Shown here piece by piece: positions 33,624 through 64,000 of a stretch of 64,000 nucleotides of DNA; position 1 is the stretch's first letter; every line of letters begins with the position of its first letter. Position numbers and translations under genes: made by a program. This DNA is from Lachnospiraceae bacterium (GTDB taxonomy: Bacteria > Bacillota > Clostridia > Lachnospirales > Lachnospiraceae). Under the pieces are notes generated by a model that made no database searches, was not told the DNA's origin, and saw only the letters and a program-made list of their open reading frames with translations. The DNA lies in assembly GCA_017445585.1 (NCBI GenBank), contig JAFSTX010000028.1:1-64000 (forward strand). Reading direction: 5' to 3'.

Positions 33624-33663
33624 TATCTTATTGCGGGAACCTTATCCCGCACGGGAGAACGAT

Positions 33664-44888: not shown

Positions 44889-45897
44889 TGCCGCATCTCC
44901 TAATGGACTCTCCTTCGAAATAGCGCGGCGCAAGACGGATTATCCTGTTGTCGGCAGGATGATTATATATTCTGTCAAGCATCAGTTCCGCTGCCTGCAG
45001 GGAAATATCTTCCACAGGCTGTGCTATACATGAGAGAGAAGGCCGGAAAACCTTGTTAATATCATAATTGTCAAAGCAGATCAGAGAGATATCTTCAGGA
45101 ATATTAAGACCGATCTCGTTAAGCGCAATGATCGCCCCAACCGTCATAAAATACGATGTTACAAGGACTGCGGTAGGACGGTTCGCTGCCGTGGAATCCC
45201 ACAGATTCTTGAAAGCCCTGTATCCGCCTTTCATGTCGTAGGTATCCTGGAAAATGCGTTTCTCATCGACAGGAAGATCATAATCCTGAAGCACCCTCAG
45301 ATACCCGCTGAGTCTTTCCCTGGCAGAAAAGCTGTCTGAATACCCCGTAATAATCGCTATGCTCAAATGACCGCGGACAAGAAGCTGTTCGGTTGCCTGA
45401 TAGGCGGCCGAAAGATTATCCGTAAAAACGGAATCCGCTTTTAATCCCGGGATATAATTATCGATGATCACAAGATTCTCGAATGTTTCACTTATCCGTG
45501 AGGCCTGCTCCGGAGAGATCTTGCTGGAGAGTATAAAGAGTCCGTCTATGTTTTTGCCGGCCAGAAAATCCATGGCGGTATTCATTTTTTCCGAAGATAT
45601 GTCGCCTATCTCGTACACGAGACAGCCGTAACCTTTTGACTGGAGAGAATTAGTCATACAGGATATTATACTTGTATAGAAGTTATTGGTTATATTGTCC
45701 ACAAGAATGCCGAGAGTCATTGAACATGAGTTCCGAAGCCCTCTGGCAAGCGAATTGGGACGGTATCCCAGATCGTTGATTGCCGAAGATATACGTTCTG
45801 CGGTTTTCGGTCTGACGCTGCCGCCATTAAGATATTTTGAAACCGTAACTACGGATATCCCGCTTCTTTCAGCTACGTCTTTAATAGTTACACCCAT
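44875..45897 (-). CDS. LacI-family transcriptional regulator of the glycan locus
   Basis: A 340-residue protein with a LacI DNA-binding head (TIKDVAERSGISVVTVSKYL, then YRPNSLARGLR) and a periplasmic-binding-protein-like effector domain (TLGILVDNITNNFY, GLFILSSK, SLICFDNYD). GGAGGG lies eight bases before the ATG. It is in the same operon as the binding protein and importer, but a strong hairpin (45928-45958) separates it from the binding-protein gene, which would lower its expression. It is the obvious candidate to bind the palindromes at 40782, 52885 and 53049. Confidence 0.9.
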   Translation of the reverse strand: MGVTIKDVAERSGISVVTVSKYLNGGSVRPKTAERISSAINDLGYRPNSLARGLRNSCSMTLGILVDNITNNFYTSIISCMTNSLQSKGYGCLVYEIGDISSEKMNTAMDFLAGKNIDGLFILSSKISPEQASRISETFENLVIIDNYIPGLKADSVFTDNLSAAYQATEQLLVRGHLSIAIITGYSDSFSARERLSGYLRVLQDYDLPVDEKRIFQDTYDMKGGYRAFKNLWDSTAANRPTAVLVTSYFMTVGAIIALNEIGLNIPEDISLICFDNYDINKVFRPSLSCIAQPVEDISLQAAELMLDRIYNHPADNRIIRLAPRYFEGESIRRCGNESL

Positions 45898-46007: not shown

Positions 46008-47774
46008 TTATTTGGCCGGATTCGGTTCGCCCCATTCTCCGCGGCCGAAACGGGCGACATTGCTTCTGTACTGCTCGGTCCAGAATGCCTCAAGCTGATC
46101 GAAGTTGTACACACCCTTTATTTCCTCCTGCATGGCTCTGACTATCTGCCTGCATTCTTCTTCGGAGGAAGCTGTTATTGCCCTGGCCTGCTCGGTCCAG
46201 CCGATCTGGTTGGCATATGTGAATGCTATTCCGGCGTCCGTGGTCGTATTTACCGACATCCCGAAGAGTTCATTGGTTCCGTCATATGAGTAAGGATAAG
46301 TATTCGGGATATCAAACTGTTCACGAAGAGGATATGTCCTCAGTCCTTCTTTGACACTTCCGTAGTAGAAGAAATAAAAATCGTTTACACCCTGATCCAG
46401 ATTCCATTCGGACCATGAACCGCCCTGCATTGCCTCGTATACGGCGTCACTCTGATAGAATACGCCGTCCTTTACGATATAATGCTCTCCGGGATTGCCT
46501 TTGTACATCTGAAGACTGCCGGCAGGAGAAGCACCATAACGCATCAGGCGAAGGGCGGCAGCAGGATCGGAGCATTTTTTGGTAATAAATGCGATAGAAG
46601 AACCGGTCATGCGGCTGCTTCCGCGATAGGAGAACGAGCTTCCGCAGTTATTCATGGGTTCAATCGCCACAAAAACACTGTCGGGATCATTCTGGCGAAG
46701 GATCATATTGGCTTCATCGAGAGCATGATAGACCCATGGCATCATAAATACGTTCGATGCGGCGCCTTCGGTGGACTGCTGCGCGTTTTTCACGAAAAAC
46801 TCGGGGTCAAGCAATCCTTCGCGGAAGAGCCGGTTCATGTATACCGCGAATTCCTCGTAGTTTGGGTCAAGGAAGCGAAGCGTTACGGAATCATCGTCAA
46901 AGTTAATGCTTATATCCTGCTTGAGTCCGAATGAGTACCCGATGGTAAGCAGAGTGCCGTCCCCTCCGTTGCCGTAGCCTCCGAGCGGGATAGAGTTTTT
47001 TCCGTCAAGGGTTGGGTATTTTTCTTTGAACAGCTTCAGTGTGTTATAGAGGTCTTCCGGAGTGGCGATACTTGGCTCTCCGAGAGCCTCCCAGATGTCA
47101 TGGCGGACCATATATCCCTGATTGCCCAGATTGCCGTTTATGGTACCGTTTTCATATTTCCACTCCGGAGCGATATCGCTAACCATGCCCCAGACAGTAT
47201 CATCTGAGGCGACTTTTCCGGCCTCGACCATGGCAGGCGGAAGAGAGGAGATAAAATCGGGATCATACTTTTCTGCCAGTTCCGTCAGGCTGTACACATA
47301 TCCGCCCTGTATGAGCTCGTTGACGATAGGAGTTGCACCGTCAAGTGTTATGATATCCGGCCAGTTGCCTGTAGTCATCATCAGATATAACGCTTCGGTC
47401 GCGTCGGAGAGAGCGACATCACAGGTGACATCGACTCCGGTAATCTCCTTGACAGTCTTCAGCGCCTTATAATTTGAAAACGAACGGTTGCAGGTCTTCC
47501 ATGCAAACGGTGTCCACAGGGAGAGGGTTGTATCATATCCGAGATACCATTTTTCATGTTCATCGGCAATATACTTCGCGAGATCGAAAGATTCGTCGAC
47601 GTTTTTGGTAATATCCCAGTCTGTGCTGACTTCCTGTACGGCTCTGTAGGACGTATCGGCCGATTCGGTGCCTGCTGCAGTCTGATCCTGGTCTGATCCG
47701 CCGCATGCGGCAAGCCCCGCGATCAGCGCAGATGACATGAGAATGATAATGCTTTTTCTAAATACTGCTTTCAT
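46008..47774 (-). CDS. Oligosaccharide-binding lipoprotein of an ABC importer
   Basis: A 588-residue extracellular solute-binding protein (family 1, LipO/YtcQ-like). It has a lipoprotein signal with lipobox LAAC (Cys near residue 24), then a Gly/Ser/Asp linker. Domain signs include GTNELFGMSVNTTTDAGIA near the C-terminus and a large two-lobe fold. It captures the imported oligosaccharide for the two permeases encoded upstream in the operon. The ATPase is not encoded here, as is usual for this importer type, which shares a multi-sugar ATPase encoded elsewhere. Confidence 0.9.
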   Translation of the reverse strand: MKAVFRKSIIILMSSALIAGLAACGGSDQDQTAAGTESADTSYRAVQEVSTDWDITKNVDESFDLAKYIADEHEKWYLGYDTTLSLWTPFAWKTCNRSFSNYKALKTVKEITGVDVTCDVALSDATEALYLMMTTGNWPDIITLDGATPIVNELIQGGYVYSLTELAEKYDPDFISSLPPAMVEAGKVASDDTVWGMVSDIAPEWKYENGTINGNLGNQGYMVRHDIWEALGEPSIATPEDLYNTLKLFKEKYPTLDGKNSIPLGGYGNGGDGTLLTIGYSFGLKQDISINFDDDSVTLRFLDPNYEEFAVYMNRLFREGLLDPEFFVKNAQQSTEGAASNVFMMPWVYHALDEANMILRQNDPDSVFVAIEPMNNCGSSFSYRGSSRMTGSSIAFITKKCSDPAAALRLMRYGASPAGSLQMYKGNPGEHYIVKDGVFYQSDAVYEAMQGGSWSEWNLDQGVNDFYFFYYGSVKEGLRTYPLREQFDIPNTYPYSYDGTNELFGMSVNTTTDAGIAFTYANQIGWTEQARAITASSEEECRQIVRAMQEEIKGVYNFDQLEAFWTEQYRSNVARFGRGEWGEPNPAK

Positions 47775-47792
47775 TTTTGGCTTCCTCCGTGA

Positions 47793-48677
47793 TTATTCTT
47801 TGATTGCTCCGATCATCATTCCTTTGACGAAATATTTCTGGAAGAAAGGATAAATCAATATGATGGGACCTATGGCCACGATAATTGTCGCAAGCTGGAC
47901 CGAATAGGGAGATATGGATCCTGCTGTTATGTTCGGATTCTGTGCTACGGCGTCGGACATGCTTGTCGCACTTGCTATGACACGCTGCAAAAGGAGCTGA
48001 ACCGGCCAGAGATCCGGATTGTCGACATACAGATATGCATCAAACCATGCGTTCCACTGGCCCACTGCGGTAGCGAGACCTATGGTCGCCAGAACTGCTT
48101 TCGCATTTGGCAGGACGATCCTGAAGAATATGACCAGATCGTTGGCTCCGTCGATCTTTGCCGATTCCTCAAGCGACTGCGGCATCGCATTGAAGAAGGA
48201 TTTGATAATGATCATATCATATACGCTGTACAGACCGGGAACGACATAGACCAGAAAACTGTTTCCCAGCCCGAGACGGAAGATGTTGAGTACTCCGGGG
48301 ATCATTCCGCCGCTGAAGAACATGGTTATGATACACAGATTAAAATAGGTTTTACGAAACATCAGATGTTTCTTGGAAAGGCCGTATGCCAGTGCGCTGG
48401 TAAACAGCAAATGTCCGATGGTTCCGATCACCGTCCTTGCTATGGTGATAAAATATGCCTGAAAGATGCTGTTGTCCTTGAATACCGCTCTGTAATTGTT
48501 CAGAGTGAATTCCCTGGGCCAAAGTATGATACCGCCGCGCATTGTATCGGTCGCCGAGTTGAAGGACATGGCAATAACCGTCCAGAATGGATAGATAAAC
48601 AATACCGCCAGCAGGCCGAGGAAGATATAGAGGAATACGTCAAAGATTTTTTCTCCGGTTGTATGCTTGAATTTCAT
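47793..48677 (-). CDS. ABC importer permease, YtcP/LplC-type
   Basis: The start at 48677 follows GGGAGGATC; an in-frame ATG at 48845 would run into the preceding permease gene. The 294-residue protein has six membrane helices and the binding-protein-dependent permease EAA loop SLEESAKIDGANDLVIFFRIVLP. The carbohydrate-importer-type C-terminus FFQKYFVKGMMIGAIKE is conserved in this subfamily. It pairs with the permease at 48694. Confidence 0.92.
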   Translation of the reverse strand: MKFKHTTGEKIFDVFLYIFLGLLAVLFIYPFWTVIAMSFNSATDTMRGGIILWPREFTLNNYRAVFKDNSIFQAYFITIARTVIGTIGHLLFTSALAYGLSKKHLMFRKTYFNLCIITMFFSGGMIPGVLNIFRLGLGNSFLVYVVPGLYSVYDMIIIKSFFNAMPQSLEESAKIDGANDLVIFFRIVLPNAKAVLATIGLATAVGQWNAWFDAYLYVDNPDLWPVQLLLQRVIASATSMSDAVAQNPNITAGSISPYSVQLATIIVAIGPIILIYPFFQKYFVKGMMIGAIKE

Positions 48678-48693
48678 CTTGTGATCCTCCCCG

Positions 48694-49632
48694 TCAGAAA
48701 AGCCCTCGTTCGCCGTGAGAGACCCATCTTGAAAGTCTGTCCGCGGCATACAGCAGGAAGAAAGAGACGATGGACCGTGCAAGATTGACGGCCGTCGCAT
48801 ATGAGTATCGTCCTGTTTGAAGCCCCATATTATAGACGTAGACATCTATGGTCCTTGCGACACTTACGTTGTTTGCATTTTGCAGCAGAAGATGCTGATC
48901 AAAATTGCTGCCCAGGATCCCGCTTACTGCGAGAATGAGCATGATAGTAACTGTCGGCATAATTGAGGGAAGAGTGATATGAAGACAGCGCTGAAGCCTG
49001 CTGGCCCCGTCTATGTATGCCGCTTCATACATATCCTGCGGAACGTTGCTTATGGCAGCCAGATAGAGGATAGAACTCCACCCCACGCCTTTCCACAGAT
49101 CGGATAATACCGCGATCGGGATAAAGGCGTCTACCCGTGCAAGAAAAGCAATATGTTCGTCGAGAATGCCCAGTTCTTCCAGCACTGTATTAAGCGGGCC
49201 GTTAATGTTGAGCAGGGCATAGAGAAGTCCCCACATGACTACCCATGAAATGAAATACGGCAGATATGAAACCGACTGAACCAGCTTCTTGAAACGGGTA
49301 CTGGTAACTTCATTAAGCAGCAGCGCAAATATGATAGGAGCGGGGAAGGTGACTATAAGCTTGATGAAGCTGATCCTCAGCGTATTCCACACTGCCTGGA
49401 TCGCGTATTTGTCGTTGAAAAAAGCGATAAAATGCTTAAAGCCTACGAATGATCCTCCCCAGAACGGATTTCCGGGAGTGTAGTCCTGAAATGCGATTAT
49501 TATTCCGTACATGGGAATATAGCAGAAGATCACGAGCCATATTATCCCGGGTATGACCATTATTTGAAGCCATCGCTGATTCAGCAGTTTTTTCAGAAAA
49601 AGTTTTGTTTTGCTTTTACTGTGGTCAGTCAA
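48694..49632 (-). CDS. ABC importer permease, LplB-type, TTG start
   Basis: A 312-residue six-helix permease with the EAA loop DMYEAAYIDGASRLQRCLHITLP and PMYGIIIAFQDYTPGNPFWGG (split motif), typical of LplB-like proteins. The start is TTG at 49632 with AAAGGAG seven bases upstream, overlapping the last eight bases of the GH2 gene, so translation is coupled. Together with the permease at 47793 it forms the channel for oligosaccharides before intracellular cleavage by the GH2 enzyme. Confidence 0.92.
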   Translation of the reverse strand: MTDHSKSKTKLFLKKLLNQRWLQIMVIPGIIWLVIFCYIPMYGIIIAFQDYTPGNPFWGGSFVGFKHFIAFFNDKYAIQAVWNTLRISFIKLIVTFPAPIIFALLLNEVTSTRFKKLVQSVSYLPYFISWVVMWGLLYALLNINGPLNTVLEELGILDEHIAFLARVDAFIPIAVLSDLWKGVGWSSILYLAAISNVPQDMYEAAYIDGASRLQRCLHITLPSIMPTVTIMLILAVSGILGSNFDQHLLLQNANNVSVARTIDVYVYNMGLQTGRYSYATAVNLARSIVSFFLLYAADRLSRWVSHGERGLF

Positions 49633-52600
49633 CTTCAGACTCCTTTCTTATATTGACGGCTTTCGCATTCCAGGCACTTATCTCGAATGATGAAGGCAGC
49701 TCCTCAAATGATAAAACTCTGATCTCGAATTCTTCTCCGGGTTCGATCCACAAGCAATTGTCGCTGTAGCGAAGCAGATGATCCATCCCCGGAGAATGGA
49801 TGTATGCCTGAAAAGCCGGCAGCAGACCGGTGTTCTTGATATGGACGGTGATTTCGTTCCCGGAAATATCAAAACTTCCTTCAAGTGTCGTCGCAGCTTT
49901 CCTGACATCGGAAATCCAGGGGCCTTCGGACAGATATGGCATGACGGAACATTTCTTTCCCACCCGCGGGCAGTGATGGCTCCGCGAGAGCAGATTGCCT
50001 TTGCTGTCGGTTAGCTCTGTGCACAGGAACAGGACCTGATCCTTCATGTCGGAAGGAATGTCATAGCAGAACCATCCTGCGTTTCTGGTATCGTCGGGCC
50101 TTATACTGACGGTTTTGCTCATCGATGCGATCAGTTTAAGCTCCGAGTCGTATAATCTCGCATTTATCACCGCGTTTTCCAGACCCGTCAATTCCTCATT
50201 TGAAACGGAAAGCATGATGCGAAGAGTATCTCCGGGCTCGTTGAACAGCTCTTCAAACACGGCGGTTATGCTGATCCGGTCAAATGCTCTTTTCTGGTAG
50301 TAATATGACCGCTTGGGCATGAGATAATAATCTACGTATGACCAGCTCATGCTGTCCGGGAAGATCACGTTAAAGACCCAGCTGAGAGCTGCGGTACAGC
50401 GGGGCCAGCGCGAGCGCCAGGTTCCGATGCCGAACTGGGTGAGGAGCCCCTGCGTGGTCTGAAGGTATTCTACAAACTCTTCCATACTGTGCGGGATACC
50501 GGCGTCGGACATCGGAGGAAACATTATAGAGGTAATTCCGGACAGGTGTGCGTCAAGGATGCTGAAGCTGCTTTCCCTGCGCGCGACATCCTCTCTTCCC
50601 CACGAAGTATAATCATATCTGAAGATATCCTCGGGCATATCTGGAGGAAATGCATCGAGTTCATCCTCGGGTATCAGCCTTTTAAGCGTATCCATGCATG
50701 GCGGGGATGCCTGGGAGTATTCGGTAATAGCGGTCGACATGTCCCGGTAGAAAACGGTATAGGGACTTCCGCCCATCCAGTTTGCAAGATAGGAGTGGTT
50801 GTCTCCGCCGTACGGAGAGGCTCGGTGAAAAGGCCTGGACGGATCCAGCTCGCCGATCATGGCTTCTATTTCATCGATTATGTCCCTGTTCTGAGGCAGA
50901 TCCGGATCAAATTCATTGCCCCCGCAGTATATCGCAAGAGAGGGATGATTGCGGAGCCTCAAAATGCTCCGGCGTATGGTCTCCCGCCAGACGTCGATGC
51001 TGCTTCCGTCATATATTCCGTTGGCAAAGAGAGTCTCCTGCCATACGCAGATCCCCATTTCGTCGCACAAATCGTAAAAGTCGTCTGTTTCGAAGAGACC
51101 GGCTCCCCAAAGACGCAGCATGTTGATGCTGCTGTCGACCGCCCTTGTAAGCAGTCTGCGGTAGCGCTCCCTGTCCAGACGGAGAAGCTGGTCTGTTGGC
51201 ATCCAGTTGGAGCCTTTTGCGAAAAACGCTCTGCCGTTTACGGTAAAGCACCAGTTATAGAGGCCCAGAGAATTGTTTTTGACCGAGTCCTCATCCGACG
51301 GAGGCATCGGTGCAGTCTTCAGAGTCCGGATACCGGTCCTCAGGTGAAGCTCGTCATGCGCAGTCGGCTCGTGCTGCTTTTGATGCTCATATAAGTCTAC
51401 TGATATATCAACGTCATACAGATTCTGATCACCCATTCCGGCCGGCCACCAGAGCCTGGCATTGGGTATCTCTGCAGAACAGGTTACTCTGATCGATCCC
51501 TGGCAGAAGCCCGGAGCAAATGTCGCGACGATATCCCCGTCTTCCGGAGCAGGTGAATGCATTATAAACCTGCCCTGGACATCAAAAGGCCACAGGGCCA
51601 TAGTGCTGACCGTGACGCTCAGATCTACGAGAGCGGTGCCGTCGGGGCTGATCCTGCGTGTGACTACCTGCGGATCGGAGAGAAATATCTTATCATCCGC
51701 GATCAGCTCAACGCCCCTCCAGATCCCGGAGGTTATTATATCCATGTTGAAATGCCAGCGATGGAGGATATAGGGTCTTACATTATTATGAGGAGGATTC
51801 GGGCAGGGTAGAATACACACGGTGAGTTCGTTCTCATTGCCCGAGTCAACGATATCCGTGATATCAAGCTCCGGGCCGCCGAACATACCCTCGTGGAAGC
51901 ACAGCCTCATCCCGTTCAGCCAGAAAACGGCACAGTAGTCGACACCGTGGAAGAGAAGACGAAGCCGCTTCCCTTCGAATGCCTTCGGGACGGTAAAACG
52001 CTTCCTGTATATCCAGAGCATGTCGCAGACCCAGTGGCATTTCGGACCGTTGAACGGGATATACGGATCTTCTATTATTCCCGCTTCCAGAAGAGAAGTG
52101 TGGACGGTTCCCGGAACAACAGCATCGATCCATTTTTCCGGATGAAGATCCTCCAGCTGTATATCCGCGGACCGTGACAGCGTATCTTCGGTGAAGCAGT
52201 CCGAAAACAGTTCTTCGTCACTGTCTTTTCCGTAAATCGAAACGGAACCGATGCGGACCTCGCCGGCCATGATCGCAAATGCGGTGTAATCGCCGCAGTA
52301 TTCACTGATCTCAAACGCAGCGATCTCCTCATCGTCCAGAAGGATGGTCATCATACTCCCGCTGCGGTGGTATGTAAGGCTGTATTCACGATCCTTTTCC
52401 AGGACCGGACCGCTCTCGCCGATCACCTGATGATCGAAAAGCTCTGAATAAACATAGTAGACATTAGGTTTTGCACCGGTCCTCAGAACCAGGTAATAAC
52501 CGGAAAGCCTTGTGATGCAATAGCATAATATGGGGCGGAAATCGCAGTCATCGCTGCCGAGTGTGAAACGTACGGATACGGTCTGGTCTCCCGGAACGCT

Positions 52601-52765
52601 GTAATTGGCATATATCAGACCGCGGGTATAGGAAGTCGGTCTGCCGATCAGCTTTCCGCCGCTGATCTGCCATGAGTTGAAACCTACGATCCAGCGGTTC
52701 AGATTATCATTCTTTTGCCAACCCAGCATCCAGTCGTCATTCAGACTGATCCTATCATGTGACAT
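49625..52765 (-). CDS. GH2 beta-mannosidase-like enzyme with extra N-terminal jelly-roll
   Basis: A 1046-residue protein without a signal peptide. Residues about 1-185 form a beta-rich concanavalin-like extra domain. About 190-350 is the GH2 sugar-binding domain (AVVPGTVHTSLLEAGII, CHWVCDMLWIYRKRF), then an immunoglobulin-like domain, and a catalytic barrel with NWMPTDQLL, MLRLWGAG, WQETLFA and the acid/base Glu618 in CGGNEFDPD. The likely nucleophile is Glu682 in TAITEYSQASPP. Length and motifs are closest to beta-mannosidase (GH2), but specificity is unproven. First gene of the importer operon, with a 135-base leader. Confidence 0.82.
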   Translation of the reverse strand: MSHDRISLNDDWMLGWQKNDNLNRWIVGFNSWQISGGKLIGRPTSYTRGLIYANYSVPGDQTVSVRFTLGSDDCDFRPILCYCITRLSGYYLVLRTGAKPNVYYVYSELFDHQVIGESGPVLEKDREYSLTYHRSGSMMTILLDDEEIAAFEISEYCGDYTAFAIMAGEVRIGSVSIYGKDSDEELFSDCFTEDTLSRSADIQLEDLHPEKWIDAVVPGTVHTSLLEAGIIEDPYIPFNGPKCHWVCDMLWIYRKRFTVPKAFEGKRLRLLFHGVDYCAVFWLNGMRLCFHEGMFGGPELDITDIVDSGNENELTVCILPCPNPPHNNVRPYILHRWHFNMDIITSGIWRGVELIADDKIFLSDPQVVTRRISPDGTALVDLSVTVSTMALWPFDVQGRFIMHSPAPEDGDIVATFAPGFCQGSIRVTCSAEIPNARLWWPAGMGDQNLYDVDISVDLYEHQKQHEPTAHDELHLRTGIRTLKTAPMPPSDEDSVKNNSLGLYNWCFTVNGRAFFAKGSNWMPTDQLLRLDRERYRRLLTRAVDSSINMLRLWGAGLFETDDFYDLCDEMGICVWQETLFANGIYDGSSIDVWRETIRRSILRLRNHPSLAIYCGGNEFDPDLPQNRDIIDEIEAMIGELDPSRPFHRASPYGGDNHSYLANWMGGSPYTVFYRDMSTAITEYSQASPPCMDTLKRLIPEDELDAFPPDMPEDIFRYDYTSWGREDVARRESSFSILDAHLSGITSIMFPPMSDAGIPHSMEEFVEYLQTTQGLLTQFGIGTWRSRWPRCTAALSWVFNVIFPDSMSWSYVDYYLMPKRSYYYQKRAFDRISITAVFEELFNEPGDTLRIMLSVSNEELTGLENAVINARLYDSELKLIASMSKTVSIRPDDTRNAGWFCYDIPSDMKDQVLFLCTELTDSKGNLLSRSHHCPRVGKKCSVMPYLSEGPWISDVRKAATTLEGSFDISGNEITVHIKNTGLLPAFQAYIHSPGMDHLLRYSDNCLWIEPGEEFEIRVLSFEELPSSFEISAWNAKAVNIRKESEVD

Positions 52766-53102: not shown

Positions 53103-53182
53103 TGTATTAAAGCTCGGGTTATATTATATAAGCTCGGGGTCTTTATGATAGTATGGCGTACGCCTTTGCGAGGATCTGTAAA

Positions 53183-56095
53183 ATGGTAAGACTGACCAGC
53201 TTCTTTCACAAATTAGTTATCATTATGATGTTTGCTGCGTGCTGCTTCGTGCTGTCGGCGTGCAGCGGCGATTTGATTGCAGGGTGGAGTCTCTCGGATG
53301 GCAGCGGAACTTTGGCTTCTTCTGAAGTGGAGGATGTTCCGGACGGGGAGATTAAGTGGGGCGTTTGGCTGAACAGCAGGACCTTTGGGCGTGTTCTTGA
53401 TTTTTCAACGAGCGGATCCAATGTTTTTATTGAAAAATGCGGCAAATCGCTCGGAAGCAGTTTTACGGTTTCTGCCTGGGTAATGGCCCCTGAGCGCGAG
53501 GACGATGACCGTGTCATTATCGCACAGGATTCCGCATCCGGCGGCATGAAGCTGTTTCTGGATGGATCCAAAGAACATGAGCTTTCTTTTGAGGCAGAAG
53601 GAATAACCGGTACCGAAAGCAGCGGGGTGAGCCTTGCCGACGGCAGATGGCATCATATAGCGGTAAGCGTCGGGGATGGTTCTCTCATATATTATATAGA
53701 TGGAAATGAAACAAAAAGAGTCGGTATCTCCGGGTCAATACCGAACGGAGAATACAGCTTGTATGTCGGATCAGATCCGGACGGGTCCTGCGGATTCGAC
53801 GGGAGCGTTGCCCAGGTAAGGATTTTTGAAGGTGCTGTCGCTCCGGACAAGACGACAGAAAGCGTCCTTGACAGCATCGATAACGAGCCCGCACCTCCGC
53901 GTATGGACCTGAAGAGAGGCATAGTTATAGACCGAAGGCAGTACTACGGCCCTGTCCCTGATCCTTCAGAGGGACAGACAGTGACCGAAGACGATATTAT
54001 CAACTGCAGGAATATGGGATTTGATCACGTCAAGATACTGCTTACGCCGAATCATCTCATTGCGGATGACGGAAGTCTGAAGCGTGAAAACATGGAGTAT
54101 ATCACGCAGGTCATCAATTATGTCAGGGATAACGATTTCAGGTGTATCCTCTGCATTCACCCCGAGGGTGATTTTAAGATGATCTATCTGAAAAATCTCG
54201 ACAATTTCGAGACGCTTTTAAAATGGTACGGCGAGCTCGCGTCCTATATCGGCGAGCATTGGGATGCGGACACGGTGGCGATTCAGCTGATGACCGAGCC
54301 CGGCAACAATAACATGACAGTTTCATGGAGCTGGATGTCCGACCGTATGTGGGGAGCAGTAAGGAATGTGCTCCCTGATCACACCATACTTACGAGCAGC
54401 GACAGATACGGCAATATCGAACAGCTTAAATATATGTCTCCGGCTACGGACTCCAATCTTATCTATACGTTTACTACCTATGAGCCTTATACAATAGGCT
54501 GGTACTACTACGGAACGACCTACGGAGTAAAGGATGCCTGGAGTTATGTTCACGATATTCCCTATCCGGTAAAAGAGGGAGAGGATTATACCGATGAGAT
54601 AGAATATGCCATAAGCGACGTTCCGGAATCCCTCAGGGAAGGTATCCGGAAGGAGCTCTGGGCCTATGTACGCGGCGAATATGACGGCAGAAGAACAGAT
54701 ATGATCAATAATTATGATTGTCTGTATAATGCCCGCTGGCATATGCTTCGCGCAGAGAGCCTTGATGCATGGAGACAAAAATACGGCGGAAACATACATA
54801 TTATGTGTGTCGAATTCGGGTGTATGGATGCGAAGACTCCTCAGGTCCTGTGGGATTCGGCTGCTCCCTGCTACGGTATATCCGACGAAAAAAGAATAGA
54901 ATTCGTAAGGGATGTGGTCGCATCCTTTGACGCATACGACATCGGTTTCTCTTACTGGTCATATAATGAGGCTCACACCATTTTTGACACCGGCGCGCAT
55001 TCATACGGAGCTTCGCCGAATCCCAAAGTTGCCCGGAACATGTTTGATTATGAAATGCTTACAAAGGCGCTGAAAGTGACGCCTCTCGTTTCTGCTGATC
55101 CGGATGCTGCTCCGGAGGAATTTGATCCGTCGTGGACGGTCATCAACAGCTTTGAATCTGTCGGAAACTGGAGTGGATCAGGCCCCCAGGTCTCATATAA
55201 TAACCCTCCCACGGGGTTTGCATGTGTGATGTCTGACAAGAGCGAACCCGATGGCGCGACTGTATTTATGGTTTCATATGCCTCGCCTAAGGATCTCTCC
55301 GCATACGCCGACGGGTATGCTCATCTTTGGGTATACGTGGAAGACGCCTCAAAGCTTGTCGGAGGACAGATCGAGCTGTGCAGCGGCGGGGGCCCGGACA
55401 TGTACGAAACCTCATGGAATATCGTTCCGTATATTTCCGCAAGCGGCTGGAATGAACTCTATCTGCCGCTGAAAGATGCAGGAACGGGTAATAAACCTGC
55501 TGATCTGGCGGCGATCAATTACATCCGCATTTTCTTCTTACAGACCGAGAAAAGCAGAGTAGGACTTGACTGCTTCTATATGTGCAATGAGGCTCCGCAG
55601 GGAGCAAACGGCAGCTATAAACCTGATCCGTCTCTTTCGGAATTCGTTATAAGTGAGATCGAGGAACTCTCTCCCTGGTATGGCACCGGGCATGAGCTGG
55701 TCAATGAAGGAGCCGCGGTGGGAAGCAGTTTTATCGCGGCAACTTCCAGAGACGGAGCGGGATCTGCTGTTTTTGCGGCTTCTTTTGCAAAAATGGATCT
55801 GTCTGATTATTCGGACGGAAATCTGCATATGTGGATATATGTGGATGACATCTCGAAACTGGTCGGGGGACAGCTGGAACTGACGAGCTCCGGCGGCCCT
55901 GATAATCAGGAGAGCTCATGGGAGATCAGGAGATATATCAAGTCTGACGGTTGGAATGAGGTCGTCCTTCCTTTTTCCGAGGCGTCATCGGTAGCGGGAG
56001 GTGCTGATCTGACGAGCGTTGACTATGTCAGGCTTTACCTGGTTCTTACAGCAGATGTCAGGAGCGGCATTGATCAGCTGTCTGTAGTCAGATAA
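53183..56095 (+). CDS. GH5-like extracellular lipoprotein with LamG domain and two repeat domains
   Basis: The start at 53183 follows GAGGAT; ATG 53153 is possible. The product is about 970 residues. A lipoprotein signal ends in the lipobox LSAC. Residues about 30-225 form a LamG/concanavalin-like domain (GRWHHIAVSVGDG). About 240-630 is a GH5-type barrel: GIVIDRRQYYGP, HVKILLTPNHL, acid/base Glu372 in LMTEPGN, and nucleophile Glu544 in CVEFGCM. Two C-terminal repeats of about 150 residues follow (GWNELYLPL, GWNEVVLPF). GH5 enzymes cleave beta-1,4-glucans, mannans or xylans; here surface-held degradation of a mannan-like glycan is inferred from the GH2 partner. First gene of the operon. Confidence 0.85.
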   Translation: MVRLTSFFHKLVIIMMFAACCFVLSACSGDLIAGWSLSDGSGTLASSEVEDVPDGEIKWGVWLNSRTFGRVLDFSTSGSNVFIEKCGKSLGSSFTVSAWVMAPEREDDDRVIIAQDSASGGMKLFLDGSKEHELSFEAEGITGTESSGVSLADGRWHHIAVSVGDGSLIYYIDGNETKRVGISGSIPNGEYSLYVGSDPDGSCGFDGSVAQVRIFEGAVAPDKTTESVLDSIDNEPAPPRMDLKRGIVIDRRQYYGPVPDPSEGQTVTEDDIINCRNMGFDHVKILLTPNHLIADDGSLKRENMEYITQVINYVRDNDFRCILCIHPEGDFKMIYLKNLDNFETLLKWYGELASYIGEHWDADTVAIQLMTEPGNNNMTVSWSWMSDRMWGAVRNVLPDHTILTSSDRYGNIEQLKYMSPATDSNLIYTFTTYEPYTIGWYYYGTTYGVKDAWSYVHDIPYPVKEGEDYTDEIEYAISDVPESLREGIRKELWAYVRGEYDGRRTDMINNYDCLYNARWHMLRAESLDAWRQKYGGNIHIMCVEFGCMDAKTPQVLWDSAAPCYGISDEKRIEFVRDVVASFDAYDIGFSYWSYNEAHTIFDTGAHSYGASPNPKVARNMFDYEMLTKALKVTPLVSADPDAAPEEFDPSWTVINSFESVGNWSGSGPQVSYNNPPTGFACVMSDKSEPDGATVFMVSYASPKDLSAYADGYAHLWVYVEDASKLVGGQIELCSGGGPDMYETSWNIVPYISASGWNELYLPLKDAGTGNKPADLAAINYIRIFFLQTEKSRVGLDCFYMCNEAPQGANGSYKPDPSLSEFVISEIEELSPWYGTGHELVNEGAAVGSSFIAATSRDGAGSAVFAASFAKMDLSDYSDGNLHMWIYVDDISKLVGGQLELTSSGGPDNQESSWEIRRYIKSDGWNEVVLPFSEASSVAGGADLTSVDYVRLYLVLTADVRSGIDQLSVVR

Positions 56096-56130: not shown

Positions 56131-59100
56131 GTGAAAGGCTTGATCGAAAAAACACTATTAATCATTGTACTGACACTTGCATTTTCCGTGCCGGTTCCTT
56201 CTGCTGCGAAGGCTGCCGACGCGGAAAATGCGTCTGCTGACGCGATGGAGACGGTTTTCGGTGATAACTGTCTTATCCGGTCCAGCGGAAAGACCAGATA
56301 TCAAACCTCGATTAAAAACGCCGATCTGCTTTGCAATGCAGTCGGTGAAGAACAGTTTGACGCGATAATAGTCTCATGCGGTGAAAAGTATCCCGATGCG
56401 CTTGCGGGTTCGTATCTTGCGGCGATCAAAAAGGCTCCGATCATTATCGTGAGTTCGAATCCGGGGGATAGCAGCCTTAATGATGCAAGCGGGTATATAT
56501 ATTCAAAGCTTAAAAACGGCGGGACGGTCTATATTCTGGGCGGAACCGGCGCCGTGCCCTCAAGCCTGGAAAGCATTGTTCTTTTCAGCAGACCTGATGC
56601 TTCAGTCAGCAGATTGGCAGGCGCCGACAGATATGAAACAAATCTGAAAAACCTGAAAGAAGCAGGTGCAGGAACTGAAACTGAGCTTATAGTATGCAAC
56701 GGAGAAAACTATGCGGATGCTCTTTCCGCATCCGCGCTCGGAAAGCCGATCCTGATGGTGAACAGGTCAGCCGCAAAGCTCACCGGATCTCAAATGAAGT
56801 ATATCGCCGCAGCAGGTTTTTCCGATTTCTGTATTCTCGGAGGGACCGGAGCGGTTCCTGCTGCGATTGATGATATTATCTTATCGATCGTCCCCGATGC
56901 AAAAATCGACAGGGTTTCCGGCAAGGACAGGTACGATACTTCCGTCAGAATCGCCGAAAGGTTCTTCTCACTGCCCGACTGTATTGCTCTGGCGACCGGA
57001 GAAAAGTTCCCCGACGGGCTCACAGGCGGAAGTCTTGCCTATCCGATAGGGGCTCCTTTGATCCTGACTTATGACAGTGAGACTTGTAATATGAAGATCA
57101 GAGATTATTCGATTAAAGAAAGAGCAAACCGGATCCTCGTATTCGGAGGAGAGGCTTCTGTACCGCAGACTTCTGCGGATATTATAGTTTCACGATCCCC
57201 GCTTGCGGAGTGGAAGCTTTCTGAAGGGTCCGGAGCTGCGGCAGGATGTACGGGAACCAATGCGCTGCCTGCCGTAATTCGATGGGGCGTCTGGCTGAAC
57301 AATGCGACGTTCGGAAAGGTTCTGGATTTTTCAACGGAAGGATCCGGTGCGCGGATAGACGGATTTGACCTGTCCGGAAAAGAATCTTTGGCAGTATCCG
57401 CATGGATCATGGCCCCTGTCCGCGAGAAAGTGGAAAGGGTGATTGCTTCACAGTGCGGCAATACGTCAGAGACCGGGTTCAGACTGTTCCTTGACGAAAA
57501 CGGGCAGCTGTGTTTTTCGTGCAGCGGTCTGGGGGATATACATGGCTCCGGCGTGGCCCTGACAGACGGAAAATGGCATCATGTCCTTGTTTCTTATGAT
57601 GAGGGGTGCGTCAGCTATTATATCGACCGTCAGGAAGCCGGCCGCTTTGAGGCTGCGGGCAGTGCAGGGTTCTCGTCAGAAGCAATGTGCATTGGCTCTG
57701 ATGCTGACGGAAGATTCAGCTTTGACGGCAGTATAGCCCAGGTCCGGATCTTTGACTGCGGCGTGCTTCCCGTACAGGCTTCGGACACTGTTCTTATTGA
57801 GTCCGACAACGAGCCCGCATCTCCGCGTATGAAGCTGAGCAAGGGTATCGTAATCGACAGAAGGCAGTACTACGGACCTGTGCCGTATGACTGGGAAGGT
57901 CAGACCGTGCGTGAAAACGATATCATTAACTGCAGGGATATGGGATTTGATCATGTAAAGATCCTTTTAACTCCAAATCACCTTATTACTGATGACGGCA
58001 GTCTGATATCTGAAAACATGGCTTATATCACTCAGGTGATTGGGTACGTGGAGAAGATAGGATACAGATGCATTCTGTGCATTCACCCCGAGGGAGATTT
58101 TAAGAGTACATATCTTGGCGATACGGACAGGTTCGAGATCCTTCTTAAGTGGTACGGGGAGCTTGCAGCCTATATCGGGGAGCATTGGGATGCCGACACG
58201 GTAGCGCTTCAGCTCATGACAGAGCCGGGCAATAACAGCTCCGCCGTAAGCTGGAGCTGGATGTCAGACCGGATGTGGGGCGCCGTGAGAAATGTTCTGC
58301 CGGATCACACTCTGCTGACAAGCAGTGATGAATACGGCCACATCGAACGAATCAAAACCATGTCGCCTGCTTCCGACTCCAATCTGATCTATACATTTAC
58401 CACATATGAGCCATATACCATCGGCTGGTATTATTACAATACAAATCACGGGGAGATGACTGCCTGGAGCTACGTGCACGATATCCCCTATCCGCTGGAG
58501 GACGGCGTGGATTATACGTCTGCCGTTGAATACGCGATCAGTGATGTGCCCGAAGAGATGAAGGCCGGTATCCGCAAGCAGCTCATGGCTTATGTCAGAG
58601 GAGAATATGACGGAAAATGGACGTCAAGGGTCAATTGCTACGACAGTCTGTATAATGCCGGGTGGCATATGATGCGGGCGAAAAGTCTGGATGACTGGAG
58701 ACAGAGATATGGCGGCAATATCCATATCATGTGTGTGGAATTCGGATGTATGGATTCCGAAACGCCAAAGAATCTGTGGGAGTCGGCTGCTCCGTGCTTT
58801 GGAATAACCGATGAAAAAAGGATCGAATTCGTCGCAGATCTGGTCAGGTCTTTTGAGTCCTATGACATCGGATGGAGCTATTGGTCCTATAACGAGGCTC
58901 ATACCGTATTCAGGACCGATGCACATGTATACGGCACGTCTCCCGATCCGGAAAATGCAAAGAATATGTTTGACTATAAGCTGCTTTCGGAGGCCCTCGG
59001 AGTCACTCCACTGGTATCCGACAGCGATTCGGTGATAATCAAAACTGATTCTACAGACGGGTGGTTCGGTTCACAGATGGTATCCGAGCATTCTTCAGAT

Positions 59101-59481
59101 TCTCCCTGCGGAGCCTGGCTGTCTGCGTCGGAGAGAGATCAGAACGGGTATATCGTTTTTGCAAACAGCTTCGCCAGACTTGACCTGAAGCGTTATGAGG
59201 GAGGCAGCCTTCATACTTGGATTTATGTGGAAGACAAAACAAAGCTTGCAGAGTGCTGTCTGGAGATTACCAGCTCCGGAGCGCCGGATGATCAGGAATC
59301 CGCATGGATTATCCTTTCTCAGATAACTGATAACGGGTGGAACGAGCTGACGCTTCCGCTCGACAGCGCCATGCTTTCGGGGGGCGGCGTCGATCTGGGC
59401 GGAGTCAACTATTTCAGGCTGTATATGAATCTTATGGGAAATACAAAAGCAGGTATCGGAAAAATTGAAATAAAAAAATGA
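56131..59481 (+). CDS. CWB2-anchored GH5-like enzyme, paralogue of the preceding gene
   Basis: GTG start at 56131 with GAGGA upstream, followed by a signal peptide (KGLIEKTLLIIVLTLAFSV). The 1116-residue protein has three CWB2 repeats (about 45-355: KYPDAL, NYADAL, KFPDGL with VYILGGTGAV loops). A LamG domain (about 360-565), a GH5 domain (about 575-970; acid/base Glu698 in LMTEPGN, nucleophile Glu870 in CVEFGCM) and one C-terminal repeat (about 975-1116) follow. LamG and GH5 parts are obviously homologous to the preceding lipoprotein. The gene gap is 35 bases, so co-transcription is likely. Anchoring differs: wall polymer here, membrane lipid there. Confidence 0.88.
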   Translation: MKGLIEKTLLIIVLTLAFSVPVPSAAKAADAENASADAMETVFGDNCLIRSSGKTRYQTSIKNADLLCNAVGEEQFDAIIVSCGEKYPDALAGSYLAAIKKAPIIIVSSNPGDSSLNDASGYIYSKLKNGGTVYILGGTGAVPSSLESIVLFSRPDASVSRLAGADRYETNLKNLKEAGAGTETELIVCNGENYADALSASALGKPILMVNRSAAKLTGSQMKYIAAAGFSDFCILGGTGAVPAAIDDIILSIVPDAKIDRVSGKDRYDTSVRIAERFFSLPDCIALATGEKFPDGLTGGSLAYPIGAPLILTYDSETCNMKIRDYSIKERANRILVFGGEASVPQTSADIIVSRSPLAEWKLSEGSGAAAGCTGTNALPAVIRWGVWLNNATFGKVLDFSTEGSGARIDGFDLSGKESLAVSAWIMAPVREKVERVIASQCGNTSETGFRLFLDENGQLCFSCSGLGDIHGSGVALTDGKWHHVLVSYDEGCVSYYIDRQEAGRFEAAGSAGFSSEAMCIGSDADGRFSFDGSIAQVRIFDCGVLPVQASDTVLIESDNEPASPRMKLSKGIVIDRRQYYGPVPYDWEGQTVRENDIINCRDMGFDHVKILLTPNHLITDDGSLISENMAYITQVIGYVEKIGYRCILCIHPEGDFKSTYLGDTDRFEILLKWYGELAAYIGEHWDADTVALQLMTEPGNNSSAVSWSWMSDRMWGAVRNVLPDHTLLTSSDEYGHIERIKTMSPASDSNLIYTFTTYEPYTIGWYYYNTNHGEMTAWSYVHDIPYPLEDGVDYTSAVEYAISDVPEEMKAGIRKQLMAYVRGEYDGKWTSRVNCYDSLYNAGWHMMRAKSLDDWRQRYGGNIHIMCVEFGCMDSETPKNLWESAAPCFGITDEKRIEFVADLVRSFESYDIGWSYWSYNEAHTVFRTDAHVYGTSPDPENAKNMFDYKLLSEALGVTPLVSDSDSVIIKTDSTDGWFGSQMVSEHSSDSPCGAWLSASERDQNGYIVFANSFARLDLKRYEGGSLHTWIYVEDKTKLAECCLEITSSGAPDDQESAWIILSQITDNGWNELTLPLDSAMLSGGGVDLGGVNYFRLYMNLMGNTKAGIGKIEIKK

Positions 59482-59523: not shown

Positions 59524-62500
59524 ATGAACGATAAACGTAAAACTATAATCATAGCAGCAGCGGTTGCCGTAATTCTGCTCGCCGCGCTTGTGCTGGTTTT
59601 TCTTATTTCAAAGAAAAATACAGATGATCAGAGTACCGAGCCGATACCATCTTCAGAACAGGGCACGGATTTGCTGCCCGATGATCCGACTGCGCCGACT
59701 ACGGAACCTTCAGACGAAAAGGAACCGGATTCTGCAACGAAAATACTTGATCCGCTTGATGAGGTCGGCCCCTGGATCGGGACCAAGCTCACTCCCAGAA
59801 CCGATTCCGACGGAAGAAAGTGGATTGCATGCGAGTCGAGAGACGAGCAGGGATCTGCTGTTATGTCACGGACTTTTGATCCGGCAGAAGATCTCAGAGG
59901 CTATGAACATGGCTATCTTCATGTTCAGATCTATATTGAGGATCTGTCAAAAATGACAGGCGGACAGCTGGAGCTTTCGAGCAGCGGAAACCCGGACAGC
60001 AAAGAGCTGTCATGGGATCTGCTTTTATATCTGAATAAGAGCGGATGGAATGATCTCTATCTTCCTTTCGACAGGGCAAACAGGGTAGGAGGAGAGATAG
60101 ATCTCTCTTCTGTAAACTATATGCGCATTTACGCCATAGTGAGCAATGATGTCCAGTTTGGCGCCGATGAGATAGAGCTGACCAATGATGAGCCCGAGAA
60201 GCCGTCGCACCTGGATGAAAACGGGCAGTTTGTCATCGATGAGATCGAATCCATCGGGGCATGGTCGGGCACAGATCCCAGGATGCAGTCAGATGGTGCT
60301 CCCGTCGGCAAAGGGTATCTGATCTCTGATAAAAAAGACGGTGATGCAATTGTATTGGCCAGAACACTTGACAATCTTGATATGTCAGCCTTTAAAGAAG
60401 GCTATCTTCATATCTGGGTCTATGTCAGAGATGTATCTTCAGTCAAGGGCGGGCAGATCGAGGTGTCCAGCTCCGGAACTGCCGATATTAACGAGACTGC
60501 ATGGGATATCCTAAATTACATAAAAAAGAACGGATGGAATGAATTGTACCTCCCCGTGAGCAAAGGGATCAAAACGAGCGGAGGAGCTGATTTCTCTGCG
60601 ATTAATTTCATTCGTGTATATATACTTACAAACGGTAATAACGCGCTTGGCCTGGACTATGTCTGCATGAGCAGGACAGCGCCGCCTGAACCCTCAAGAA
60701 TAGATGCAAATAATCAGTTTGTGATAGATTCAGTTGAGGATATGGAAACATGGATAGGCAGCAGTCCGTATATTTCCTCACGGAATGCGGCGGTAGGAGA
60801 TGCATGGCTTGTTACAAAATCGAGGGACGAGGCGGGAAGCGCGGTCCTTTGCAGATCTCTTCTGGATCTGGATGCTTCCGCATATAAGAACGGTTATCTC
60901 CACATGTGGCTATATGTGGAAGACGTCTCACTGGTCCAGGGCGGGCAGATAGAGCTGTCCAGCTCCGGAGAAGCCGATAAAAAGGAAACATCGTGGGACC
61001 TTGGCGCCATCGCGCTTAAAAACGGATGGAATGAGCTGTATCTGTCTGTGGCAGATGCAAATAAAGTAGACGGAGGAGCAGACTTTTCCAGGCTGAATTT
61101 CATTAGGATATATGTGATCACATCGCGTGCACAGACTATAGGAGTCGATTATATTGCGCTTTCGAGAGTTGCTCCCGAGAGGGAAAGCGCCGTGGACGAA
61201 AACGGAAACTATATTATCGATATGATCGAGGGAGTCTCGCCCTGGAGCGGGTCCGCTTTTGTATACAATAAAAACGGCGGTTACGATACCGGAAAGGATT
61301 GGCTCAGCTCCTCGTCGTCTCTTAGAATGGATCTGCAGTTCTTCCGTAACTACGCGCGGGCGGATGTTACAGGCTACAGAGAAGGCTGTCTGCATATATG
61401 GGTGTATATTGACGACCTGACAAATCTGACGGGCGGAATGGTCGAGATCACCAGCACAGGTACGGTAGATGACGGAGAACTGTTCTGGCTTCTCTCTGAT
61501 TACGTATCGGAAAGCGGCTGGAATGAGCTGTTCCTTCCCTTGAAGTCTGCTCAGTCCGAAGGTGATACGCCTGCGGATCTGTCTTCTATGAATTGTATCA
61601 GAGTCGTGTTTATGCTTGGAGATAACGGAGGAAACGCAGGCGTGGATGAGATTTATTTTACAAATACGGCTCCGGAAGATAAAAAACAGGATGAGGAAAC
61701 AGATAATACTATCTTTGTCCACAAAGGCGAATCTCTGGCCGATACGTGGGGAACAAATCTTGAACTGTCGTCTGCAGATGCCCCGGTCGGCAAATACTGG
61801 ATAAAAACAGGCGCAGATACCGCCGCTGTGGTGTGTGCCAATATTAATCCCGCGATAGATATCAGGGGCTATGAGAACAGTGGCGAGCTCCATGCATTCA
61901 TATATGTAGAGCATGCAGACAAGGTCGTGGACGGACAGATCGAGCTGACAAGCAGCGGTTTCTCGGATGTCGATGAAACCTCATGGAACTTATCCTCCTC
62001 AATTCTTCATGACGGCTGGAATGAGCTGATCCTGAATTTCTCTGATGCCAATCACGAGGGGAATACGAATTATGCGATAGTAAACTATATGCGTGTCTAT
62101 ATCAATTACTCTGAACCTTCTGTAATCGGAATAGATCAGGTATATGTCGGAGGTAATAAGACGGATTCCGTGCCTTTGGATGAGGGGACGAAAGAAGCGG
62201 CAATGGCCGAAGCGGCCGAGCGGTCTGTGCTTTCTGAAGGCAGTGATAATATGAAAGGTTCTATCGCCGCTGTCCTGAAAAAAGCTATAAACGGTGAGAA
62301 GATTACTGTCGTGGCTTTCGGTGCATCCATCACGGCCGGCGCTTCCGCTGTCGAAGGCATGGGATATGCCGATCAGGTCACCTCGTGGCTCGAGTCGCTT
62401 GACGGAAAAACAGATAATAAGAACGTCAATCTGGTTAATGTGGCGATCGGATCGACGGAGAGCGTACTTGCCGCGAGCCGTGTGGAGCGTGACGTCATGC

Positions 62501-64000
62501 CGCATACTCCTGATCTGGTTATCATGGGACACGGCGGGTCAAATGATTATGGCCTTCCTTATGCCCAGGAGGCCTTTGAGGGCGCGATACGCAAGCTGAT
62601 CGGATACGGCATCCCGATCGTCAACTTTACTCCCTGCCCTGAAAACGGACGGAATATCGAAGAGGATGTTAATCAGATAGATTTGAATTACGGGGTGCCC
62701 CAGATAGGCTTCAGGGCCGCGTACTATGAGTTTGCCCATATGACGGGAATACAGGGGCTCCGGAAGGGCGATGTGTGGTCATCGGATCTGATCCATCCGA
62801 CGACTAACGGCCATACCCTAATCGCAGACCTTATCATCAGCTACCTGAAGAAGTATATTATCGAAGCGGGCGTCTCTCCTGCAGAACTCATAACCGATCT
62901 TTCGGATCCCGTTACAAACAATGGTTTTAACGATTCGATCCTGCTGGAAAACAATTCGGTTGATGAACGTATTGCCGTAAGTATGGACGAAGGATGGAGC
63001 GCAGATTACTCCGCAAGGATCTATCAGCTGAAAACAGAAGGATGGCAGACTGACAGGGTCGGATCTTCTCTGACACTTAATGTGAAAGCGGGTTATTTCT
63101 ACCTGTTTTATGCGCTTACTCCCACGTCCGGAGATCTGGAGATAACCGTGGACGGAGAGGTCAGGGATACGATCGACTGGGCGTATAAGGGGACCGGATA
63201 CATGAATGTGTATCATGTGCTCCATCTGGGTGAGAGTACAGAGCATACGATAGTTCTGACATTAAAAGACAATCCTAATGTAGAAAAGGACTGGTTTGGA
63301 ATCTGCGCAGTCGGAGCATCCAACTTTGACGGATATAAATCGAGACTGATCGTTCATAACGGTGAATCGCTTAGCGGATCCTGGGGAAGCAATCTGCAGC
63401 TGATACCCGGCGAAGCCCCTGAAGGTAATAACTGGATACGGACCGGAGAGACTTCATCTGCCGTAATATGCGCCAACATAGATCCGGTGCTTGATATCAG
63501 AGGATATGAAAACTCGGGAGATCTGCATGCCTGGCTGTATATAAGCGATGCGTCCAAGGTAATCGACGGACAGATCGAGCTGTCCAGCTCCGGACTGTCG
63601 GACAAAGAGGAAACAGCATGGAATCTTAACAAGACAATGCTGCATGACGGATGGAACGAGCTGACGCTGAAGTTCTCGGATGCTGTCTATTCCGGATCGA
63701 CCAACTATGCCCTGATCAATTATTTCAGAGTGTATATAAACTATTCCGGTCCTGCATTTATAGGAATCGACGAGATAGAAGTCTGCGGTACCAAGTCGGA
63801 TGTCCCGCAGGATACTTCCTCCAAAGAAGAACTGATAGCTCAGGCGGTTGAAAGATCGGTGATCAATGCCGGATCTGACAACATGAGATCGGCGATAGCC
63901 TCCGTTTTATCAAAAGCCAAAAACGGTGAAAGCATTACTCTGGTAGGCCTTGGAGCATCGATTACCGCAGGTGCATCAGCAACGCCGGGTCAGGAGTATA
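59524..64000 (+). CDS. Giant membrane-anchored modular SGNH esterase, continues past window
   Basis: An open frame from ATG 59524 (42 bases after the GH5 gene; GAAAGGGATGGA upstream) runs to the window end: 1492 codons, no stop. Residues 7-28 are an N-terminal membrane anchor (TIIIAAAVAVILLAALVLVF) followed by an acidic Pro/Asp/Glu linker. Five about 150-residue repeats follow (about 75-219, 233-385, 398-549, 560-714, 730-878), then an SGNH/GDSL hydrolase (about 915-1112) with Ser935 in GASITAG, Asn1007 in GGSNDYG and Asp1088/His1091 in SDLIHP. A beta-domain (to about 1270), a sixth repeat (about 1275-1423) and the start of a second SGNH domain (Ser1479) complete the visible part. SGNH enzymes are often carbohydrate acetylesterases, so glycan deacylation is likely. 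Confidence 0.85.
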   Translation, partial: MNDKRKTIIIAAAVAVILLAALVLVFLISKKNTDDQSTEPIPSSEQGTDLLPDDPTAPTTEPSDEKEPDSATKILDPLDEVGPWIGTKLTPRTDSDGRKWIACESRDEQGSAVMSRTFDPAEDLRGYEHGYLHVQIYIEDLSKMTGGQLELSSSGNPDSKELSWDLLLYLNKSGWNDLYLPFDRANRVGGEIDLSSVNYMRIYAIVSNDVQFGADEIELTNDEPEKPSHLDENGQFVIDEIESIGAWSGTDPRMQSDGAPVGKGYLISDKKDGDAIVLARTLDNLDMSAFKEGYLHIWVYVRDVSSVKGGQIEVSSSGTADINETAWDILNYIKKNGWNELYLPVSKGIKTSGGADFSAINFIRVYILTNGNNALGLDYVCMSRTAPPEPSRIDANNQFVIDSVEDMETWIGSSPYISSRNAAVGDAWLVTKSRDEAGSAVLCRSLLDLDASAYKNGYLHMWLYVEDVSLVQGGQIELSSSGEADKKETSWDLGAIALKNGWNELYLSVADANKVDGGADFSRLNFIRIYVITSRAQTIGVDYIALSRVAPERESAVDENGNYIIDMIEGVSPWSGSAFVYNKNGGYDTGKDWLSSSSSLRMDLQFFRNYARADVTGYREGCLHIWVYIDDLTNLTGGMVEITSTGTVDDGELFWLLSDYVSESGWNELFLPLKSAQSEGDTPADLSSMNCIRVVFMLGDNGGNAGVDEIYFTNTAPEDKKQDEETDNTIFVHKGESLADTWGTNLELSSADAPVGKYWIKTGADTAAVVCANINPAIDIRGYENSGELHAFIYVEHADKVVDGQIELTSSGFSDVDETSWNLSSSILHDGWNELILNFSDANHEGNTNYAIVNYMRVYINYSEPSVIGIDQVYVGGNKTDSVPLDEGTKEAAMAEAAERSVLSEGSDNMKGSIAAVLKKAINGEKITVVAFGASITAGASAVEGMGYADQVTSWLESLDGKTDNKNVNLVNVAIGSTESVLAASRVERDVMPHTPDLVIMGHGGSNDYGLPYAQEAFEGAIRKLIGYGIPIVNFTPCPENGRNIEEDVNQIDLNYGVPQIGFRAAYYEFAHMTGIQGLRKGDVWSSDLIHPTTNGHTLIADLIISYLKKYIIEAGVSPAELITDLSDPVTNNGFNDSILLENNSVDERIAVSMDEGWSADYSARIYQLKTEGWQTDRVGSSLTLNVKAGYFYLFYALTPTSGDLEITVDGEVRDTIDWAYKGTGYMNVYHVLHLGESTEHTIVLTLKDNPNVEKDWFGICAVGASNFDGYKSRLIVHNGESLSGSWGSNLQLIPGEAPEGNNWIRTGETSSAVICANIDPVLDIRGYENSGDLHAWLYISDASKVIDGQIELSSSGLSDKEETAWNLNKTMLHDGWNELTLKFSDAVYSGSTNYALINYFRVYINYSGPAFIGIDEIEVCGTKSDVPQDTSSKEELIAQAVERSVINAGSDNMRSAIASVLSKAKNGESITLVGLGASITAGASATPGQEY

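Follow-up and report, generated by a model that had tools for sequence, protein, structure and literature searches.

We analysed a window of 64,000 nucleotides, the first 64,000 bases of the 73,804-bp contig JAFSTX010000028.1 from a Lachnospiraceae bacterium (assembly GCA_017445585.1, 80 contigs, 95.5% complete). At the end of the window lies a gene for a very large protein with two esterase units, for which no stop codon was found in the 1,492 codons up to the window edge. An earlier note on this DNA had described it as a membrane-anchored protein of at least 1492 residues that was still open at the edge and contained six repeats and two SGNH units. When the reading frame was followed on its own contig, it closed at position 65460 with zero internal stops, and the full protein has 1,978 residues. 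It consists of an N-terminal anchor, five repeats (R1 to R5), a first unit of an SGNH domain and a beta-domain, a sixth repeat (R6), a second SGNH and beta-domain unit and a seventh repeat (R7; Table 1). The window holds R1 to R5, the entire unit 1 and R6. It breaks off ~60 residues into the second SGNH domain, a stretch that includes block I, and the remainder of unit 2 and R7 lie beyond the edge. The module order with six repeats was correct for the window, and R7 was found on following the frame past the window edge. A stop directly after the window that left the second SGNH domain unfinished did not occur, and both units are complete. The proposed membrane anchor corresponds to a 24-residue hydrophobic stretch (residues 7-30) without an obvious cleavage site, which makes N-terminal membrane attachment the probable arrangement. 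No other Kyte-Doolittle window above 1.6 was found in the protein.

The family of the esterase units was investigated by sequence and structure comparison. PF13472 (Lipase_GDSL_2) matched both SGNH units above the Pfam cut-off, in two stretches (1.4e-23). In a phmmer search against the sequences of solved structures, 6hfz/6hh9 stood out at 3e-28, followed by the next match at 2e-4. This structure is that of a mannan 2-O-acetylesterase with two domains from Roseburia intestinalis, later assigned to CE17 (RiCE17/RiCEX; PMC13276840, PMC10492685). The phmmer match extends over the SGNH domain into the beginning of the beta-domain, and a profile of 37 units aligned to 6hfz end to end (3e-161). The AlphaFold2 (AF2) model of unit 1 had a mean predicted local distance difference test (pLDDT) score of 91.3 and matched 6hfz with a Z-score of 41.7 and a root-mean-square deviation of 2.2 over 356 residues (5-380 of the model to 4-371 of the chain). 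The next-best fold, a single-domain SGNH protein, reached Z 18.7. In the model of unit 1, the SGNH domain and a carbohydrate-binding module (CBM) 35-type domain are packed as in 6hfz. For unit 2, the same arrangement is seen in the sequence match, which takes in its SGNH domain and the first part of its beta-domain. We conclude that each unit is homologous to RiCE17 over both domains. The beta-domain that the earlier note had listed separately is present, but it forms the C-terminal half of an esterase of the CE17 type and is not a module of its own. For this reason, beta-mannan is far more likely to be the target than either xylan or pectin.

The active sites were inspected in an alignment of 37 sequences including units 1 and 2, in which the columns of the catalytic Ser, Asn, Asp and His are invariant. 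Both units have the SGNH blocks I, III and V with Ser, Asn and Asp-x-x-His (residue numbers in Table 1). In RiCE17, roles have been assigned to Ser41, Asn110, Asp190, His193 and Trp326 (PMC13276840). Block I reads GASIT here instead of GGSIT. Block III reads GHGGSND in unit 1 and GHGVND in unit 2, and EFSVND in most others; its Asn serves the oxyanion hole (the SGNH mechanism is reviewed in PMC9487903). Decay of both esterases, a possibility raised with the first description, was rejected since the four catalytic residues are intact in each unit. For unit 1, one could still suppose that it is non-catalytic and acts as an extra binding module, with unit 2 as the sole esterase. Its GGSND motif has one extra residue immediately before the oxyanion Asn that is found neither in unit 2 nor in any other aligned unit, and its terminal branch is longer than that of unit 2 (0.40 versus 0.23). 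However, unit 1 keeps Ser, Asn, Asp and His, whereas a decayed relative in the alignment (L033_389) has lost the catalytic residues (GGGTA, YDD, TVYP). An inactive unit 1 is therefore improbable in our view.

The two halves of the esterase region are closely related to each other. R5 and R6 are 58% identical, compared with 24-35% to most other repeats, and form a sister pair in the tree (support 97/92). Likewise, the SGNH units 1 and 2 are 60% identical and are sisters (100/100). Since the two sister pairs agree and show matching identities, the cassette of repeat and esterase was duplicated as one block, which bears out the internal duplication that had been proposed from the order of the modules. 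As the assembly is fragmented into 80 contigs, the double cassette might be suspected to be an assembly artefact. The cassettes are ~70% identical in DNA and 59-60% in protein, which is too diverged for a misassembled repeat, and misassembly was rejected as their origin; we give it practically no weight. R7 pairs in the tree with a repeat of a downstream 949-residue protein (98/95), indicating that repeats have also moved between genes.

In total, 14 copies of the repeat were found in four co-oriented genes: seven in the surface protein, two and one, respectively, in two GH5 proteins (GH5-A and GH5-B), and four in the 949-residue secreted protein. The copies match each other far beyond chance (single-domain independent E-values 1e-24 to 1e-57), and within this genome the repeat is confined to the cluster. 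Searches of the repeat against Pfam and the PDB sequences returned chance-level matches only and no family. The model of R3 is a beta-sandwich, and like that of unit 1 it is confident. Most of its best structural matches are carbohydrate-binding modules. The closest CBM folds are CBM11 (Z 13.3), CBM30 (12.2), CBM22 (11.2) and CBM29 (10.7), with matches to these families at Z 10.5-13.3 overall, and a Bacillus mannanase (1wky) matched through its binding module at Z 13.2. The four CBM families have the beta-sandwich in common with the repeat, but no relation was found in sequence and the identity in the structural alignments is low. At Z 14.1, a viral turret protein (8qpg) matches as well, and a domain of a chondroitin lyase and an assembly factor of complex I also adopt this fold. 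The fold alone is no proof of binding. The repeat is linked to CAZyme catalytic domains, lying C-terminal to two GH5 domains and around both esterases. We regard it as a good candidate for a carbohydrate-binding module family not described before. We are more doubtful about a wider proposal, in which such a new family serves as a private tag of the cluster that assembles the esterases and the GH5 enzymes on a single acetylated glycan, and the paired esterase units, having lost the Trp clamp, split the work, by acting on another acetyl position or by use of unit 1 as a binding module.

The distribution of the repeat was tested with a profile of the 14 copies. Among 396 further genomes of the family it matched in just one, G174, which has five distant copies, and 390 others of the class gave no match. 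A genome of another species of the same genus (G211) has neither the repeat nor the esterase, and a contig scan with cassette patterns gave no match. The five copies in G174 belong to a 998-residue surface protein with a C-terminal anchor-like tail (L057:1273-4269), directly preceded by a gene for a GH38 alpha-mannosidase.

Both GH5 genes are located upstream of the esterase gene and share its orientation, and the three genes are separated by short gaps of 35 and 42 bases. PF00150 was found above the cut-off in both (3.6e-14 and 4.2e-12), and inspection of the translations located the two catalytic Glu in TEP and VEFG. The catalytic domains of GH5-A and GH5-B are 76% identical, and no close relatives were found in 298 other genomes of the family; on sequence grounds, they appear to form a rare GH5 group. 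A GH2 gene is divergent to the GH5 genes and is followed by an ABC transporter region. Downstream of the esterase gene are genes for a nucleoside-hydrolase-like protein, the 949-residue repeat protein, a GntR/UTRA regulator, a DeoC-type aldolase, an FGGY kinase and an IS110-type transposase. The 949-residue protein (contig positions 66516-69365) has no catalytic domain that we could find, its C-terminal 300 residues gave no assignment, and it is a candidate surface glycan-binding protein.

Table 1. Features of the predicted surface esterase gene and its neighbours (positions on the contig; residues of the 1,978-residue protein)
Feature	Positions	Strand	Residues	Remarks
Surface esterase gene, 5' 1,492 codons	59524..64000	+		runs on to 65460
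N-terminal hydrophobic anchor	59542..59613	+	7-30	Kyte-Doolittle 3.35 over 19 residues
Linker rich in Pro, Ser, Thr and Asp	to 59733	+	31-70	follows the anchor
Repeat R1	59734..60189	+	71-222	CBM-like beta-sandwich
Repeat R2	60196..60678	+	225-385	
Repeat R3	60685..61170	+	388-549	AF2 model, mean pLDDT 95.3
Repeat R4	61177..61668	+	552-715	most divergent of this protein
Repeat R5	61681..62160	+	720-879	first half of cassette 1
CE17-like unit 1, SGNH and C-terminal beta-domain	62188..63321	+	889-1266	Ser935, Asn1007, Asp1088, His1091
Repeat R6	63322..63795	+	1267-1424	first half of cassette 2, sister of R5
CE17-like unit 2, first part	63820..64000	+	1433-1815 (whole unit)	continues to 64968; Ser1479, Asn1550, Asp1631, His1634
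Repeat R7	64978-65457	+	1819-1978	
GH5-A	53153..56095	+		lipoprotein signal (LSAC), LamG-type lectin domain, GH5, two repeat copies
GH5-B	56131..59481	+		signal peptide, three CWB2 modules, LamG-type domain, GH5, one repeat copy
GH2 protein	49625..52765	-		closest to beta-mannosidases of known structure (5n6u, 2je8), 2.9e-71
ABC transporter region	46008..49632	-		permeases 47793-48845 and 48694-49632
588-residue protein	46008-47774	-		no Pfam match; putative solute-binding role, from its position
LacI-family regulator	44875..45897	-		

From the computed features (architecture, completeness, RiCE17 homology, catalytic residues, cassette duplication, repeat fold and shared repeat) we infer surface display, glycan binding, activity, substrate and cooperation. 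The uncleaved anchor would hold a long extracellular arm of five CBM-type repeats that carries two CE17-like acetylesterases, with the sixth repeat between them and the seventh as a cap. The repeats probably bind polysaccharide and would keep it at the cell. The private repeat on GH5-A, which is lipid-anchored, on GH5-B, which is bound by CWB2, and on the 949-residue protein could bring all four proteins to the same glycan. Here, the esterases would remove acetyl groups by the Ser-His-Asp/Asn mechanism of SGNH enzymes and so allow the GH5 endo-enzymes to cut the backbone. The fragments may then be imported by the adjacent ABC transporter and trimmed by the GH2 enzyme. The surface placement and the teaming with two GH5 enzymes, both part of the first description, are plausible only, with adjacent, co-oriented genes and a shared private repeat in their favour. 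With moderate confidence, we read the protein as a surface-displayed polysaccharide deacetylase that most likely acts on acetylated beta-mannan or glucomannan. This glycan is favoured but unproven, and it is favoured because of the relation to CE17 and the GH2 neighbour.

The protein might instead act on the cell's own wall (O-acetyl peptidoglycan or a secondary wall polymer) or be chiefly an adhesin, with no part in carbohydrate uptake. The membrane anchor, the many repeats and the CWB2 attachment of GH5-B would fit such a role, and peptidoglycan O-acetylesterases are among the distant fold relatives (Z about 18). However, these matches cover the SGNH core only, whereas the whole-length match is RiCE17, and the shared repeat and the gene order link the protein to the GH5 enzymes and to the operon of transporter and GH2. 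We regard a wall or adhesin role as very unlikely.

Several observations weigh against beta-mannan deacetylation by this protein. First, the clamp Trp326 of RiCE17 (the W of FDETWGDKL, numbered by counting along the alignment) is gone from the CBM35-type domain of both units, where the motif reads TIDWAYKGTGYMN and TINWAYLGTGYMN, respectively. At least 90% of the aligned sequences keep the W of this column (449), a residue that has been tied to 2-O-acetyl specificity (PMC7666174). Because it is missing, we name the units CE17-like and do not class them as CE17 enzymes with an established specificity. When esterase patterns were used for a scan, they matched single, repeat-free proteins only; three of the matches are CE17-like and lipoprotein-like, come from metagenome-assembled genomes of Clostridia whose names suggest rabbit samples, and all have the clamp Trp. 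Second, the extra residue in block III sets unit 1 apart, the stem of units 1 and 2 is very long (2.5 changes per site) and their placement among the CE17-like proteins is weakly supported (43/13). Third, the GH5 domains have TEP in place of the usual NEP at the acid/base, with Thr for Asn, and are closest to the endoglucanase CelC, at only 34 bits. Finally, GH26 (PF02156) and GH130 (PF04041) gave no match in the bacterium's own genome, and the GH26 mannanase and GH130 phosphorylases of a Bacillota mannan-utilisation locus are thus missing here. With the lost clamp, the insertion in block III and the absence of GH26 and GH130, the locus does not fully conform to the standard mannan-locus reading, and the clamp and the missing families call for caution on the substrate.

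The same surface deacetylase could act on another acetylated glycan in place of beta-mannan, for instance a glucan, a xylan or a polymer of microbial or host origin, or on another acetyl position. The loss of the sugar-stacking Trp, the long isolated branch of the units, the lack of both GH26 and GH130 and the endoglucanase-like GH5 domains all point in this direction. On the other side, the neighbouring GH2 enzyme is closest to beta-mannosidases, a Trp slightly earlier in the motif (DWAY/NWAY) may stand in for the clamp from a shifted position, and at the completeness of this assembly missing genes are not fully excluded. We consider another glycan or acetyl position a serious possibility, though less probable than the deacetylation of beta-mannan or glucomannan.

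RiCE17 shares with the units the SGNH and C-terminal CBM35-type domain arrangement and the Ser/Asn/Asp/His set. It is a single free enzyme with Trp326 that is located in the cytoplasm of R. intestinalis and acts on imported oligosaccharides (PMC6385246, Fig. 7), whereas here two copies, ~24% identical to it and without this Trp, are fused in a predicted extracellular repeat protein. The predicted location and the loss of the clamp in both units are what is novel compared with known CE17. The characterised CE17 deacetylates inside the cell after uptake; if our reading is true, some Clostridia would deacetylate the polymer outside, before cutting, which would alter cross-feeding for their neighbours. 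The missing clamp also offers a natural test of how CE17 picks the acetyl position.

Two units per polypeptide are likewise found in CE17-like proteins of two other genomes in the family, G127 (L058, 803 residues) and G045 (L061, 812 residues). These proteins have no repeats, and their units are old, distinct paralogues and not a recent pair. In both (L058:10816-13221 and L061:3069-5501), a CE2_N match lies between the two units. The CE6-CE1 fused esterases of Bacteroidetes, which show intramolecular synergy (PMC7110780), also have two esterase domains on one polypeptide, but they join different families, are directed at xylan and lack a large repeat array. RiGH26 of R. intestinalis (CBM27-GH26-CBM23, PMC6385246) is likewise cell-attached and modular with several binding modules for mannan; it is a mannanase and not an esterase.

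The G+C content is 0.51-0.57 in the part of the window upstream of 44 kb and drops to 0.48-0.50 in the cluster. Together with the patchy distribution, this suggests that the cluster is an acquired island. Giant surface esterases seem to be numerous in this lineage: other contigs of the genome (C72, C27 and C26) encode SGNH surface proteins that are also very large, with 1850, 1675 and 1183 residues, and one of them has CWB2. In these three proteins, neither the repeat nor CE17-like units were found. Elsewhere in the window, a 1,666-residue protein with GLUG motifs is encoded at the start (382-5382), and a PFL-like glycyl-radical enzyme lies next to its radical-SAM activase (40878-43765). Two more wall-bound CWB2 proteins are encoded at 28093-29913 and 33631-36306; a CAP domain is present in one of them and an SH3 domain in the other.

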